Below are positions 11,604 to 23,281 of a stretch of 23,281 nucleotides of DNA, piece by piece (position 1 is the stretch's first letter; each line of letters starts with the position of its first letter). Source of the stretch: a virus. Under the pieces are notes generated by a model that made no database searches, was not told where the DNA came from, and saw only the letters and a program-made list of their open reading frames with translations. The DNA is taken from positions 1 to 23,281 of the IMG/VR virus record IMGVR_UViG_3300006919_000470. The stretch is one strand, 5' to 3'. The position numbers and the translations under genes were made by a program.

Positions 11604-12505
11604 ATTTACTGGGATTGGTACAAGCAGCAGCAGGAGAGTTGGGGCTATCCCAGCCATCTGCTGTGGCTACAGCTACAGACGATCAAACAAAACAACTATT
11701 AGCTTTAATTAACAAAGTTGGTAATGATGTAATTTCTGTTGCAGAATGGGAGGGCATTTCTAAGGAAAATCGCTTTTCTACAGTTTCTTATACCGTAACA
11801 GGAAATACGACTGCTGATTCTGCTGTAGTAACTTCTACAGATACTACTGGTAGTGGTTTAGCTGTAGATACGTTTGAAGTAATTGGTGGCTCTGTGCCTA
11901 CCGACACTACTATTGAATCTATTGATAGCAGTACACAAATTACGATGTCTAATGCTGCTACCAAGACCGAAACTGGTGTATCTTTAACTTTTAGCAAAAC
12001 GCAATACGACTTACCTAGTGATTATGACCGTTTTAAAAACAGAACAACTTGGGATCAAACAAATTACTGGGCAATGCCTGACCCACAATCAGCACAAGAG
12101 TGGGCTTATTTAAAGTCAGGAATTATTGCTAATACGCCACGTTTACGTTTTAGAATATTGGGCGGTAAGTTTAATATATTTCCACCCGGAACTGGTGTAG
12201 TACGTTTAAAGTTTGAATATACTTCAAACGGATGGGTTGAAGCAGCCGATGGCACAGCTAAGACAGAATTTGGAGTTGATACAGATACTTGTATTTTCCG
12301 AGATAGAACTATTATTTCTGGCCTGAAATATGAGTTTTTTAAGATTAAAGGATTTGATACAGACGGTTTATGGCGCGATTATCAGATACAGCAAGAGTTT
12401 GAAAAGGGTATTGATAAAGGTGCGCCAACATTAAGTATGTCTGATAGAGGTGGTAGTTTATTCTTAGGTAATTCTTCTATTCCAGACACAGGATTTGGGT
12501 CTTGA
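11600..12505 (+). CDS. Head-tail adaptor, P22 gp4-like, with inserted beta-rich segment (301 aa)
   Basis: The N-terminal helices (LLGLVQAAAGELGLSQPSAV and LLALINKVGNDVISVAEWEG) and the later parts (YDLPSDYDRFKNRTTWDQ, RFRILGGKFNIFPP, EYTSNGWVEAADG) resemble the tail accessory/adaptor proteins that bind below the portal. Residues about 66-131 are a Thr/Ser/Val-rich stretch (GNTTADSAVVTSTDTTGSGL to GVSLTF) unlike the rest; it reads as an extra beta domain inserted between the helical start and the YDLPSDYD part. Removing it leaves about 235 residues. gp4 assignment rests on order and pattern, and its lysozyme-like activity in P22 is not claimed here. It overlaps the next gene as TTGA. Confidence 0.65.
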   Translation: MNLLGLVQAAAGELGLSQPSAVATATDDQTKQLLALINKVGNDVISVAEWEGISKENRFSTVSYTVTGNTTADSAVVTSTDTTGSGLAVDTFEVIGGSVPTDTTIESIDSSTQITMSNAATKTETGVSLTFSKTQYDLPSDYDRFKNRTTWDQTNYWAMPDPQSAQEWAYLKSGIIANTPRLRFRILGGKFNIFPPGTGVVRLKFEYTSNGWVEAADGTAKTEFGVDTDTCIFRDRTIISGLKYEFFKIKGFDTDGLWRDYQIQQEFEKGIDKGAPTLSMSDRGGSLFLGNSSIPDTGFGS

Positions 12506-14034
12506 AGTCTAAGACTAAATCAGTTTCCTCTCCAGTAGGCGGATGGAACGCGAGAGATGCGTTGGCACAAATGCCACCAACTGATGCGGTTAAGATGGAA
12601 AATGCTTTTCCGAATACAACTGATGTTCAGTTACGCAAAGGTGCTGCTAATCATGTAACTGGTATTACAGGTAAGACAGTACAAACATTAGCTGCCTATA
12701 ACAACGCTACTACTTCAGAATTATATGCTTTTGTAGACAATGCGGTTTATGACGTATCTAGTGCTGGGGCAGTAGGCTCTGCTGAATCAGGCACAACCAT
12801 TACTAATGCGAAATGGCAGTTTATTAACTTCAAAGTTCCTAATGGGGCGCATTGGTTATTGTGCGTAAATGGAGTGGATAAACCTCTGTTTTATGATGGT
12901 ACTAATTGGGTTGTAGTCACTCATTCCACTACACCTGCCATTACTGGCTATCCTAGCAATGCATTACAAAACATTATTCATATTAACGAATTTAAGCAGA
13001 GAGTCTGGTTAATTTCTAAAGATTCATCTGTAGCTTTTTATTTGCCAACAGATTCAGTAGGTGGGGGTGCTACGGCTTTTGATTTAGCTCCTGTATTCGA
13101 TCAGGGCGGTTCTCTGATGGCAATGGGAACTTGGTCAATTGATGCTGGGGCAGGACTAGATGACCATGCGGTATTTATATCGAGTAAAGGTCAAGTAGCT
13201 GTATATGCTGGCACTGATCCTGCTAATGCTGCTACCTTTTCATTAATCGGTGTGTTTGATATTGGTTCTCCAATAGGTAGAAGATGTTTTATTAAATTTG
13301 GTGGTGATTTATTAGTTATCACACAAGGTGGTGTAGTGCCACTATCTAAGGCGTTAATTAATGCTGAAATTAGTCAAGCAGTAGCTATTACTGACAAAAT
13401 TAGATCAGAGGTTACTGAGGCGGTTGCTTCTTATTCTGCAAATTTTGGTTGGCAACTTTTGCAGTACCCTAACGCAAATATGTTGTTATTAAATGTACCT
13501 GTATCAGCTACATTATTTGAACAATATGCGATGAATACGATTACGGGCGCATGGTGCAAATTTACTGGTTGGGATTCCTCTTGTTGGGAAATATTTAACG
13601 ACGAAATTTATTTTGGTGGGTCAACAGCAGTAAGAAAGGCTTGGTCTGGCAATAGTGATTATGGAAACAATATTACCGCAGATGTAATTCCAGCATTTGA
13701 CTATTTTAATAGTAATCGTCAAAAAAGATTTACGATGGCAAGACCTATATTTTTAAGTACAGGTACACCATCAATTTTGATGGATATGAATACCGATTAT
13801 GTAACTTTGCCACCATCAGGTGCGCCATCTTTAGCTGTAAGTAATGAATCTATTTGGGATACTTCTAAATGGGATGAGGCTAGTTGGGGTGGCGATTATC
13901 AGATACAAAAGGATTGGGCTACAGTAACAGGTGTAGGTTTTTCTGCATCTTTGCATATTCAATTTACTAGCAAAGCAAATGAAGTAAAATGGCTTTCTAC
14001 GGACTTTGTATTTGAAAATGGCGCAGTCATATAA
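12502..14034 (+). CDS. Tail/neck protein, P22 gp10-like (510 aa)
   Basis: TTG start overlapping the previous stop by four bases. The opening (SSPVGGWNARDALAQMPPTD, then AVKMENAFPNTTDVQLRKGA) is the typical beginning of gp10-like proteins of podoviruses, which form the ring between adaptor and tail needle or fibre. The body is a series of beta strands with repeated motifs such as YNNATTSELYAFVDNAVYD, VNGVDKPLFYDGTNWVVV and FGGDLLVITQGGVVPLSKAL, like a beta propeller. The final part has WDTSKWDEASWGG. The last bases overlap the next gene by 17 if that gene starts at 14018. Confidence 0.8.
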   Translation: MKSKTKSVSSPVGGWNARDALAQMPPTDAVKMENAFPNTTDVQLRKGAANHVTGITGKTVQTLAAYNNATTSELYAFVDNAVYDVSSAGAVGSAESGTTITNAKWQFINFKVPNGAHWLLCVNGVDKPLFYDGTNWVVVTHSTTPAITGYPSNALQNIIHINEFKQRVWLISKDSSVAFYLPTDSVGGGATAFDLAPVFDQGGSLMAMGTWSIDAGAGLDDHAVFISSKGQVAVYAGTDPANAATFSLIGVFDIGSPIGRRCFIKFGGDLLVITQGGVVPLSKALINAEISQAVAITDKIRSEVTEAVASYSANFGWQLLQYPNANMLLLNVPVSATLFEQYAMNTITGAWCKFTGWDSSCWEIFNDEIYFGGSTAVRKAWSGNSDYGNNITADVIPAFDYFNSNRQKRFTMARPIFLSTGTPSILMDMNTDYVTLPPSGAPSLAVSNESIWDTSKWDEASWGGDYQIQKDWATVTGVGFSASLHIQFTSKANEVKWLSTDFVFENGAVI

Positions 14035-14440
14035 AGTAATTTGTGATGATCCTGAAAGGGTGGGAAAGTGGGTGTCAAAGCGCACGGGAACTAAGTGGTG
14101 GTGTCAACACGCAGCAATAGGTTTTGAGAAAGATGGGGCATTAGTAGCAGGTATTATTTATGACAACTTTAATGGCAAAAACATATTTGCTCATATAGCT
14201 GCTGTACCTAATAAGCGTTGGCTAACTAAAGCGTTTCTGCGTTATATGTGCCACTATCCATTTAATGAACTAAAAGTGAATCGAGTTACTGGAATGATTC
14301 CATGCACGAATAAAGCATCAATAAGATTTGTAGAAAAGTTAGGGGCTGAGTTAGAAACGACATTGAAAGATGCTCATCCAAAAGGCGATTTATTAGTATA
14401 TCGAATGATTAAAAAAAACTGTAAATATTTAGGAGTATAA
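14018..14440 (+). CDS. GNAT-family N-acetyltransferase (140 aa)
   Basis: The segment NRVTGMIPCTNKASIRFVEK then LGAELE (residues 88-113) matches the acceptor end of GNAT enzymes: a strand, then N-x-x-(A/S)-x-x-(F/L)-x-x-x-x-G-(F/A)-x. The strand HAAIGFEKDGALVAGIIYD and the AHIAAVP strand before it fit the central sheet. It transfers an acetyl group from acetyl-CoA; the acceptor, possibly a protein or small molecule, is unknown. It sits between two virion genes and overlaps the gp10-like gene, so it is made late and could act on virion or host protein. ATG 14018 is chosen over a TTG at 14006. Confidence 0.8.
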   Translation: MAQSYKVICDDPERVGKWVSKRTGTKWWCQHAAIGFEKDGALVAGIIYDNFNGKNIFAHIAAVPNKRWLTKAFLRYMCHYPFNELKVNRVTGMIPCTNKASIRFVEKLGAELETTLKDAHPKGDLLVYRMIKKNCKYLGV

Positions 14441-16383: not shown

Positions 16384-16692
16384 ATGCCTCAAGTAAACGG
16401 CAAGAAGTATCCATATACTCCTGAAGGTATTAAAGAAGCAGCTAAACAACGAATGTCTTGGCCTGAAAGGCTGAACGCGATTAATATTTTATTAGGCACA
16501 GAAGATGCTACAGAGCCACAACCTAATTTTGAATTAGAAGATGTTAGAGGAGTAATAGGAGGAGGTGCTGCTGGAGCAATGACTGACCAAGATATGCGAA
16601 ATCTTGGCAACCCTACTAGCAGAGATTTTGCAATTCCAGAAATAGATGAGGCTATACTGAGACAGCGAAAAGAAAGAATATTTGGATATTAA
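16384..16692 (+). CDS. Small phage protein with MPQVNGKKYPYT opening (102 aa)
   Basis: The start MPQVNGKKYPYTPEGIKEAA matches a short opening often seen in tiny proteins of podovirus tail regions ('MP.V.GKKYPYT..G'). The rest holds a helix (RLNAINILLGTED), an acidic stretch and a Gly-rich VIGGGAAGAMTDQD. No function known. The ribosome binding site AAAGGAAA precedes the ATG. It ends in a TAATG overlap with the PAPS-reductase-like gene. Confidence 0.65.
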   Translation: MPQVNGKKYPYTPEGIKEAAKQRMSWPERLNAINILLGTEDATEPQPNFELEDVRGVIGGGAAGAMTDQDMRNLGNPTSRDFAIPEIDEAILRQRKERIFGY

Positions 16693-17414
16693 TGATAGCA
16701 GGTCATAAAAATATAGTTTTATGGTTTTCGGGTGGCAAGGACTCGATGGCTTGTCTTTACCTACTAAAAGATTATTTAAGCGATATAACTGTTTTATGGT
16801 CTAATACGGGTAAGAATCATCCTGAGTTATTAGATACGGTTTCTAGGGCTAAAAAACTCTGTCCTAACTTTATAGAGATTAAAACTAATAGAGATGCTCA
16901 GTGGAAAGAAAATGGTCTGCCGTCAGATATAGTTCCTATAGATTATACTAAGATTGGTCAGGGTGTTACTTGCAAGAAAAAAGTAATGATTCAAAGCTAT
17001 TTGCAATGTTGCTGGGAGAATATTTCTAGTCCATTAGTAGAAAAAAGCAAAGAATTAGCTGCTACATTAATTATTAAAGGTCAACGGGCAGATGAGGCTC
17101 ATCGCTCTATTTCAGAAAATGGTTATATGCAGGACGGATTACAATTTTGGCATCCAATTGAAGGATGGACAAAAGAGCAGGTATTAGACTTTTTACGAGC
17201 AGAAATGGGTAATTTACCAGATCATTACAAGTTAGACCACTCTAGTATGGACTGTTGGGATTGCACTGCTTTTGCAGCACACTCGTATGATAGAGCAGAG
17301 TATATGAAGGTTTATTATCCAGTTAAATATAAGCAATACCAAAAGAAGTTAAACAAGGTCTGTGGCGCAATTACAGATACTTATAAACAATACACACGTT
17401 TAATCGAGGAATAA
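16692..17414 (+). CDS. PP-loop PAPS/APS-reductase-like enzyme with CC-X80-CXXC cysteines (240 aa)
   Basis: SGGKDS at residues 13-18 is the PP-loop that binds the phosphates of ATP, PAPS or APS. The following LWSNTGKNHPELLDT and the later IKGQRADEAHRS fit the PAPS reductase family. Four cysteines lie as C106-C107, then 80 residues, then C188-W-D-C191. That is the CC-X~80-CXXC pattern that binds a [4Fe-4S] cluster in APS reductases. A VCG triplet near the end (Cys224) lies where the catalytic ECG(L/I)H box would be but is not a match, so reductase activity is doubtful. Alternatives are a nucleotide- or DNA-modifying sulfur enzyme (DndC is a relative) or another PP-loop ATPase. The gene is coupled to its neighbours (TAATG before, one-base gap after) and is an accessory enzyme in a virion operon. 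Confidence 0.85.
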   Translation: MIAGHKNIVLWFSGGKDSMACLYLLKDYLSDITVLWSNTGKNHPELLDTVSRAKKLCPNFIEIKTNRDAQWKENGLPSDIVPIDYTKIGQGVTCKKKVMIQSYLQCCWENISSPLVEKSKELAATLIIKGQRADEAHRSISENGYMQDGLQFWHPIEGWTKEQVLDFLRAEMGNLPDHYKLDHSSMDCWDCTAFAAHSYDRAEYMKVYYPVKYKQYQKKLNKVCGAITDTYKQYTRLIEE

Positions 17415-20859: not shown

Positions 20860-23281
20860 ATGGCAAGAAACGGATCAGGTACATACACTCTACCTACTGG
20901 AAACCCAGTAGCTAGTGGTACAGTAATTTCAAGCACTACTCACAATAATACTATGACAGATGTGGGTACAGCTTTGACCAATTCTGTAGCTCGTAACGGT
21001 GAAGCACCTTTTACGGCAGATCAGCCTATGGGTGATAACAAGATTACTGGCTTAAAAAATCCAACTGCTCAGACAGACGCTACTAATTTATTAGCAATCC
21101 AGCATGGAACGGGTGTATACGGAGCAACAGTAGGTGGTTCAGGAAACGCCATAACCGTAACTTTATCTCCTGCTATAACCGCCTACGCTGCTGGTCAAAA
21201 ATTCAGCTTTATTGCTGGGGCAGCTAATACAGGTGGAGTTACTATTAATTTTAATGGATTAGGTGCAAAAGCAATTACCAAAGTAGGCACAACTGCTCTG
21301 GTAGCTAATGATATATTATCTAGCAGCTTGGTCGAAGTAGAATATGACGGTACGAGATTTCAGTTAATTTCACCAATTGGTGCTGATCCATCTGGTACAT
21401 ATTTACCGCTTGCTGGTGGTACGCTAACAGGCGATTTGAATATGTCTGCCAAAGCTATTAATGAGGCCACTCATACTGAGGCTGCTCATGCCACTACTAG
21501 CGATATATGGACGGGCGGTAATACCTGTCTACTGTCAGGTTCAGTAGTTACTTTCACAGACGTTGCAGACGCTCCAGCAGTAGGGGCAGTACGCTACGTG
21601 GTCGCTAATGCAGCACACGTTATTACTGATAATAGTGCATTGGAAGTTGATGGAAATGCCAACTATACTTGTGCAGTAGGAGACTTACTTAGATTTGAAG
21701 CAAAAACCACTTCAACCTTTAGAGTAAGCGTAGTTGCTCATGGAGATGGTGGCGGTAGCGGTGATGCTAAAACAGCTAATCCACTATCTCAGTTTGCTGC
21801 TACAACTAGCGCACAATTGGCTGGAGTAATATCAAATGAAACAGGATCAGGACTATTAGTTTTTGGCACAAGTCCAACTTTAGTAACTCCTGCTTTAGGC
21901 ACTCCATCTGCTTTAGTTGGAACAAATATATCAGGAACGGCAGCTAGTCTTACCGCAGGTAATGTAACGACTAATGCTAACCTCACAGGTCATATTACCA
22001 GTAGTGGTAACGCTGCTGTACTAGGCTCATTTACTTCAGCACAACTAAAAGCAGCACTAACAAACGAGACGGGTTCTGGAGCTGCTGTTTTTGCAGAAAG
22101 CCCGACATTAGTTACTCCTGCGCTTGGCACTCCGGCAAGTGGAGTAGCAACTAATCTAACAGGAACTGCGTCAGGACTTACTTCTGGCAATGTAACGACT
22201 AATGCAAACTTAACAGGTCATATAACTAGCTCTGGCAATGCAGCGGTATTGGGCAGCTTTACTTCAGCTCAACTAGCTACAGCACTAACAAATGAGACAG
22301 GTTCAGGAGCAGCTTGCTTTGCTACCGCGCCTACTATAGTAGGACTCACGGCAACTGGTGATATTACTATGTCGGGTAAAGCTGTTAATGAAGCTGTACA
22401 TACTGAAGCTGCACACGCTACAACTTCTGATATTTGGACAGGTGGGAATACGTGCTTATTGAGTGGTAGTGTAGTTACCTTTACTGATGTGGCAGATGCA
22501 CCTCAAGCTGGGGCAGTTCGATTCGTCGTGGCAAATGCTGCTCATGTAATAACTGATAACTCTGCGCTAGAGGTAGATGGTAACGCTAATTACACTTGTG
22601 GCATAGGTGATGTATTAATGTTCACAGCAAAAACTACATCTACTTTCCGTGTAAATATACTTTCTCATGGAGACACAACTGGCGATTATGTGCCATCAGC
22701 AGTAGCAATAACGGGTGGTACTATCAATGGAACTACCGTTGGAGCGTCTACACCTGCTGCGGGTAATTTTACTTCTTTAGATGCTACTGGTGTAGCTAGT
22801 GCTACCACTTTTGAACCAGATGGTGATACCTCGGCAAGTGATAACGCAGCAATAGGTTATACAGCAGCAGAGGGGCTAATACTTACTGGTCAAGGTTCAA
22901 CGACAGATGTGACCATCAAAAATGATGCTGACGCTAAAGTTATGGGGGTGCTTACAGGAACAACTACCGCAGCTTTTGAAGGAGAGGTCACAGCAACTGG
23001 CTTCACAGGTACACTTGATGGCGTACTGGGTGGCGGAACTCCGGCTGCTGCCACTACAACAACTCTCAATGCTACTGGTGTTGCCACTCTGCGATCAGAG
23101 ATTGACGAAAGTAGCGCATATACTGGTCAGCTTGTAATTGACTCTGTAACTAAATCAGCAGGACACTTAGCTAGGATTCTCTTTGAACATGACGATCATG
23201 GTTCAGCATCAATTGCAAGTGATTACGAAAGTGCTGGATATGGCAATCTAATACTTTCTACCAGAGGTGGTGGAAATCCAA
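20860..23281 (+). CDS. Tail fibre protein, open at the window end (807+ aa)
   Basis: ATG 20860 follows AAGGA. The frame stays open to the last base, so the gene is partial at its 3' end. The N-terminus (MARNGSGTYTLPTGNPVASG, then TVISSTTHNNTMTDVGTALT) is the usual virion-anchoring start of podovirus fibres. The shaft is built of Thr/Ala/Gly-rich beta repeats (GNVTTNANLTGHITSSGNAA, PTLVTPALGTP), including a 228-base repeat unit and a separate duplicated 102-residue block. Near the end LRSEIDESSAYTGQLVID and HLARILFEHDDHGSASIASD begin a different domain, probably the start of the receptor-binding or chaperone part, which lies outside. The fibre recognises the host surface. Confidence 0.88.
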   Translation, partial: MARNGSGTYTLPTGNPVASGTVISSTTHNNTMTDVGTALTNSVARNGEAPFTADQPMGDNKITGLKNPTAQTDATNLLAIQHGTGVYGATVGGSGNAITVTLSPAITAYAAGQKFSFIAGAANTGGVTINFNGLGAKAITKVGTTALVANDILSSSLVEVEYDGTRFQLISPIGADPSGTYLPLAGGTLTGDLNMSAKAINEATHTEAAHATTSDIWTGGNTCLLSGSVVTFTDVADAPAVGAVRYVVANAAHVITDNSALEVDGNANYTCAVGDLLRFEAKTTSTFRVSVVAHGDGGGSGDAKTANPLSQFAATTSAQLAGVISNETGSGLLVFGTSPTLVTPALGTPSALVGTNISGTAASLTAGNVTTNANLTGHITSSGNAAVLGSFTSAQLKAALTNETGSGAAVFAESPTLVTPALGTPASGVATNLTGTASGLTSGNVTTNANLTGHITSSGNAAVLGSFTSAQLATALTNETGSGAACFATAPTIVGLTATGDITMSGKAVNEAVHTEAAHATTSDIWTGGNTCLLSGSVVTFTDVADAPQAGAVRFVVANAAHVITDNSALEVDGNANYTCGIGDVLMFTAKTTSTFRVNILSHGDTTGDYVPSAVAITGGTINGTTVGASTPAAGNFTSLDATGVASATTFEPDGDTSASDNAAIGYTAAEGLILTGQGSTTDVTIKNDADAKVMGVLTGTTTAAFEGEVTATGFTGTLDGVLGGGTPAAATTTTLNATGVATLRSEIDESSAYTGQLVIDSVTKSAGHLARILFEHDDHGSASIASDYESAGYGNLILSTRGGGNP
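21442..21747 (+). repeat. Intragenic duplication, copy A (102 codons)
   Basis: Codons 195-296 of the fibre gene, from the ATG of MSAKAINEATHTEAAH to the GAT of VVAHGD. It matches copy B at 87 of 102 residues. Of the 87 shared residues, 59 use a different synonymous codon, so the DNA match is much weaker than the protein match. Confidence 0.85.
21802..22335 (+). repeat. 228-base in-frame fibre repeat array
   Basis: Three copies at a spacing of 228 bases (76 residues). Copy 1 (21802-21957) lacks the 5' part, copy 2 is complete (21958-22185), and copy 3 (22186 on) is clear to about 22335 before diverging. Shared protein segments are GNVTTNANLTGHITSSGNAA, VLGSFTSAQL, TNETGSGA and PTLVTPALGTP. 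The type is common in phage fibre shafts. The array lies between duplication copies A and B. Confidence 0.8.
22369..22674 (+). repeat. Intragenic duplication, copy B (102 codons)
   Basis: In-frame second copy, 927 bases after copy A (MSGKAVNEAVHTEAAH to ILSHGD). The longest conserved protein run includes SDIWTGGNTCLLSGSVVTFT. Four serine positions switch between TCN and AGY codon groups. The differences that change the protein cluster at the copy ends and around residues 78-86. Confidence 0.85.

Follow-up and report, generated by a model that had tools for sequence, protein, structure and literature searches.

The window analysed here is the whole 23,281-nt virus record IMGVR_UViG_3300006919_000470, and L-numbers denote the related contigs and genomes with which it was compared. 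At its end lies a putative tail-fibre gene (20860..23281, + strand) with an ATG start and 807 visible codons, open at the 3' end because the virus record stops there. Residues 1-152 of its product, the N-terminal region, match proteins of Stenotrophomonas phage BUCT555, Bradyrhizobium phage ppBjS10J-1 and Myxococcus phages Mx8/Mx9, one of these matches being annotated as 'putative tail fiber protein', and residues 79-192 match a Pseudomonas phage 'tail fiber protein'. The gene is found downstream of genes for the portal, the major head protein and further structural proteins, and the portal protein of the window leads to the same distant phage group as the matches of the fibre N-terminus. From the matches of the N-terminus and the following stretch, together with the affinity of the portal protein, the gene therefore most likely encodes a phage tail fibre; both the shared N-terminal region and the location after the virion genes are those of a fibre attached to the virion. 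By analogy, the fibre is presumably trimeric.

Several other genes of the window were noted. A gene for a calcineurin-like phosphoesterase (1756-2727; PF00149, E 2.4e-5) precedes the terminase gene, a PAPS reductase-like gene (16692-17414; PF01507, E 5e-15) is located inside the block of virion genes, and a weak match to GNAT acetyltransferases (14042-14440; PF13302, E 5e-4, under the cut-off) is located between virion genes. The protein encoded at 12502-14034 very strongly matches a PHROG labelled 'amidase' (E 2.7e-119); it matched no family in Pfam and its gene sits among virion genes, so the 'amidase' label may be a misannotation.

The fibre gene contains two copies of a domain of 102 codons, copy A (21442..21747) and copy B (22369..22674), both on the + strand like all of the features between them. 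Copy A is followed by a Gly-rich linker with a NPLSQFAATTSAQ stretch (21748..21816), then by a repeat unit U1 of about 75 amino acids (about 21817..22038; LVTPALGTP...NVTTNANLTGHITSSGNAAVLGSF), a second unit U2 (about 22045..22266), and the partial start of another U unit with a APTIVGLTATGDIT lead-in to copy B (22267..22368). The U units are a second repeat of the same gene, unmentioned in the initial annotation, and the U pair also shows synonymous divergence (31/56-57). Members of the U family occur in at least 540 IMG/VR contigs as well as in bacterial genomes, most of them metagenome-assembled, usually with 2-5 copies per open reading frame.

The counts in the initial annotation that drew attention to copies A and B were all reproduced by codon alignment: the two copies align without gaps, 87 of their 102 residues are identical, a different synonymous codon is used at 59 of these 87 positions, and four serines switch between TCN and AGY. 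DNA identity between the copies is 69.6%, and 62 of the 93 nucleotide differences fall at codon position 3. Estimation of dN and dS, which the same annotation had proposed, gave by the Nei-Gojobori method (NG86) a pS of 0.84, at which dS is saturated and undefined, and a dN of 0.138, i.e. a dN far below a saturated dS, as is expected of an old duplication. The protein identity is beyond chance, tblastn E values between domain copies being about 1e-50 to 1e-67.

Two explanations of this pattern were rejected. Convergence of unrelated low-complexity modules, which the initial annotation had named as the outcome that would overturn its reading, is ruled out because A and B belong to a single family of folded domains, in which there are positions invariant across 20 sequences. 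Foreign origin of one copy was evaluated by codon usage: that of copy B fits the window's own (P 0.31) and that of copy A is slightly unusual (P 0.03), a deviation too small to call foreign, and the GC3 of the two copies (0.27 and 0.24) is close to that of the genome (0.26).

Sequence searches with the domain module against PDB, Pfam and PHROGs found nothing useful; a profile search of PDB sequences found nothing relevant (best E 0.19, to a light harvesting protein), and a scan of genome contigs with the module gave no match. The structure of copy B as a monomer was predicted by AlphaFold2 from 19 aligned copies as all beta, with 8 strands (pLDDT 89.0, pTM 0.80). The best solved matches by Foldseek are the tailspike depolymerase Solidus_gp83 (E 7e-4) and the Pa223 capsid spike (E 1.2e-3), with a probability of 1.00, and structural alignment by VIA gave Z scores of 7.3 for Solidus_gp83, 6.8 for Pa223 and 6.6 for CpaA. 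Further matches by structural alignment are TSP4 residues 79-180 (Z 5.1, 88 residues), gp9 residues 57-168 (5.1), gp10 residues 40-152 (4.4) and StcE (4.0). Among the 14 matches listed, 11 are phage spike or baseplate proteins or domains of StcE or CpaA, with Z of 4.0-7.3 over 85-98 residues, and the next, unrelated structural match reaches a Z of only 2.6. Among predicted viral structures there are 140 fold matches at E <= 0.001, mostly from uncultured Caudovirales among the matches listed. The predicted fold is a beta-sandwich of about 100 residues that is matched over the whole domain, as in XD1-like folds, and homology of the domain to the XD1 family is likely, the absolute Z scores being middling (< 8).

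About 18 contigs in IMG/VR carry the domain, most of them with one copy, L003 with three. Single-copy relatives, which the initial annotation had suggested looking for, thus exist (e.g. L011, L012, L013). An array consisting of A, a linker ending in NPLSQFAATTSAQ, U units, the APTIVGLTATGDIT lead-in and B is common to the window, L003, L010 and L002, with copy A and its linker in the equivalent position in the latter three. Its order in L003 is A-U1-U2-U3-B-B'; L010 has A-U1-U2-U3 and then the lead-in to B, where the contig is cut off, and L002 has A-U1-U2 and is also cut off before B. The lead-in found before B of the window is shared by L003, in front of its own B, and by L010, at its end, and in L003 the Gly-rich/NPLSQFAATTSAQ linker follows copy B as well as copy A. 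Before B, there are two U units in the window, compared to three in L003 and, before the lead-in, three in L010. The U2 of the window is an apparent mosaic of U2 and U3 of L003, its codons 17-32 having 90% DNA identity to L003 U2 and its codons 57-72 having 90% identity to L003 U3; codons 33-55 of the window's U1 are nearer to L003 U3 than to L003 U1. These mosaic tracts in U1 and U2 would be compatible with gene conversion or with loss of one unit, either of which is possible.

The age of the duplication was examined by comparing repeats in the same position in different viruses with repeats in different positions of one gene. For U1, dS is 0.47 between the window and L003 and 0.91 between the window and L010; between L003 and L010 it is 0.49 for U1, 0.28 for U2 and 0.68 for U3. 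Different U units within one gene have dS from 1.27 (U1 of the window against its own neighbour U2) to saturated, versus this range of 0.28-0.91 for the same position across viruses. Taken together, U pairs from the same position show 80 synonymous differences versus 163 expected at saturation, and within-gene U pairs show 247 versus 244.2 expected. For the domain, the comparisons of A with A and of B with B between the window and L003 each show a synonymous difference at 49 of 90 positions (0.54), versus 59 of 87 (0.68) for A and B of the window. Same-position copies are closer across viruses clearly in the case of the U units and more weakly in the case of the domain, of which the A/A and B/B pairs are also near saturation (dS about 2.2-2.3), so that, for the domain, the argument from position depends on the U units at its flanks, on synteny and on a modestly supported tree. 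In this protein tree of domain copies, support of 85/93 unites the B-type copies (B of the window, B and B2 of L003) with the copy of L013 and a distant sequence on a long branch, and the A copies are unresolved.

Because same-position copies are closer to each other than copies within a gene, the copies must have split before the viruses did. An old, conserved duplication, with the protein of each copy held by purifying selection, very probably accounts for A and B, and no new mechanism is needed. This was the first of three options in the initial annotation (an old duplication under strong protein constraint), and it is supported by the A-U-B order kept across contigs as well as by the closeness of same-position copies. 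The second option, that one copy came from a diverged relative, does not have to be invoked for the time since the common ancestor of these contigs and is pertinent to the original founding event, which may have been of this kind because fibres of other phages carry single copies of the domain, which apparently moves between them. Against the old duplication, short tracts may have passed between the domain copies and other lineages.

In the case of separate acquisition, A and B would not have arisen as tandem duplicates within this gene; instead, two already diverged lineages of the domain would have been joined by recombination between fibres and then inherited together. Consistent with this, unrelated fibre contexts (L011, L012, L013, L015, L017, L134 and L137-L143) have the domain in a single copy, the window and L003 have different sequences upstream of A, and B-type copies group, with modest support, with the single copy of L013. 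However, the synteny of A and B in the A-U-B family extends back to the common ancestor, and any separate acquisition is therefore old; moreover, the extra B copy of L003, with its own lead-in, looks like the product of intragenic duplication. Separate acquisition is a possible but rather unlikely origin of the pair.

The divergence of the two copies might also be an effect of sampling, since assembly of short metagenomic reads breaks at identical repeats, so that collections would favour fibre repeats diverged in DNA. Among U pairs of viral contigs there are none with less than 34% synonymous difference, whereas the isolate Sphingomonas sp. SRS2 (L101:3958-4540) has a U duplicate that is 98% identical in DNA with an exact run of 144 bases, a recent duplication within the same repeat family. 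In addition, U-bearing viral open reading frames run off the 3' end of the contig in 26 of 84 cases versus 3 of 84 for the 5' end, and the window also ends inside the gene. On the other hand, recent repeats within genes were assembled in other viral contigs, namely L029 (12-29% synonymous difference, with an exact run of 136 bases) and L067 (16-29% synonymous difference), and a filter that removes identical repeats can neither make diverged ones nor explain the closeness of same-position repeats across viruses. Assembly may hide young duplicates and would be at most a partial filter; as the explanation of the pattern it is improbable.

The extent of codon scrambling between A and B was compared with two models of expectation, independent codon choice from the genome's usage and shuffling of codons within each copy. 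The 59 codon differences compare with 48.6 +/- 4.4 by genome usage (P 0.011) and with 51.8 +/- 3.7 by shuffling (P 0.029), and the longest exact run shared by A and B is 10 bases, versus about 15 expected (P 0.03-0.05). Most of the scrambling is the pattern of any saturated pair, and a small excess is left over. The third option of the initial annotation was that selection removes the DNA identity of A and B, since recombination between identical repeats would delete the intervening shaft; such selection would favour synonymous changes that push divergence past neutral saturation. The short exact run and the slight excess of synonymous difference over saturation (P 0.01-0.03), which age alone does not predict, point in this direction. 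The domain has four within-gene pairs, one of them in the window and three in L003, and each is above expectation (jointly 216 versus 198.1, P 0.0047), as is L003 alone, which does not contain the pair originally flagged (157 versus 146.2, P 0.038), whereas A/B pairs across genomes have no excess (287 versus 289.1 expected). Loss or exchange of units by recombination is plausible as well, the window being one U unit short of the number in L003 and L010 and having a mosaic-like U2.

Against selection of this kind, the sister repeat U in the same genes has no excess (the 247 versus 244.2 given above). Neither does the U family at large, in which 85 U-carrying viral contigs were surveyed with usable pairs from 36 clusters: the ratio of observed to expected is 0.96 within contigs versus 0.94 between contigs, and at equal protein identity exact runs of U are no shorter within a contig than between contigs. 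The A/B pair was chosen for looking scrambled and several statistics were tried, the multi-copy domain is known in two genomes only, and the excess is about 9%. No paper directly addressing codon divergence of repeats within a gene as protection from recombination was found in the literature searched, an absence that is weak evidence. The part of the third option that stands is thus a weak, post hoc excess confined to one domain, with none in the sister repeat, and selection against DNA identity is a very improbable explanation of the scrambling.

Overall, A and B are best read as an old domain duplication of an ordinary kind, well preserved and with a weak signal left over. The shaft of the fibre would be a mosaic of reusable domains, in which an XD1-type beta domain of ~100 residues is present twice with a run of 75-residue shaft units in between. 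Whether by duplication or by the joining of two lineages of the domain, the pair would have arisen before the common ancestor of the window phage and its relatives; afterwards, purifying selection would have acted on the protein of each copy while synonymous sites went to saturation, and saturation alone would account for nearly all of the codon scrambling. The role of A and B is most likely structural, according to the predicted fold, as XD1-like domains placed along the shaft, where they presumably serve as spacers or as interaction domains. The implication for fibres of environmental phages is that domains hold their position in an array for longer than synonymous saturation takes, and the predicted fold ties a repeated fibre domain to the structural family of XD1. 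Should the weak excess of synonymous difference be confirmed in more genomes, it would directly test whether the stability of repeats influences codon choice in phages.

Repeats that are conserved by position between species and much more diverged inside a protein have been described (Persi, Wolf, Koonin 2016, PMC5120217), and the fibre follows this rule, same-position repeats being closer across viruses than repeats within the gene. That study associates the divergence of intraprotein repeats with relaxed purifying selection, whereas A and B retain 85% protein identity at saturated dS. Like A and B, the knob of the tail fibre of Alteromonas phage A5 (PMC10579305) is a domain that is double in one virus and single in the fibre of a relative, but it is a different domain and is linked to chaperone dependence. 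The annotated tail fiber protein of podovirus MW202697 (Manatee Spring) resembles that of the window in containing the domain, at 52% identity, together with four places that match U, but it has only one copy of the domain.

The best solved fold matches, Solidus_gp83 (PDB 24qj, residues 595-701) and Pa223 (9ny6, residues 192-294), resemble the fibre domain in structure but have only 9-14% sequence identity to it, and Z scores below 8 can mean merely a common arrangement. For XD1 of TSP4, gp9, gp10, CpaA and StcE have been given as relatives, XD1 modules have been proposed to be spacers, and CpaA has four tandem copies of an XD1-type domain (PMC8825819). The fibre domain differs from XD1 of T4 gp9 and gp10 and CBA120 TSP4 in having only 7-14% sequence identity to them and in being located within a repetitive shaft in two copies (three in L003) rather than beside the virion anchor. 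It nevertheless matches the same set of relatives that was given for XD1 (PMC8825819), and the pair of copies extends a known kind of fibre-domain duplication by a new sequence family.
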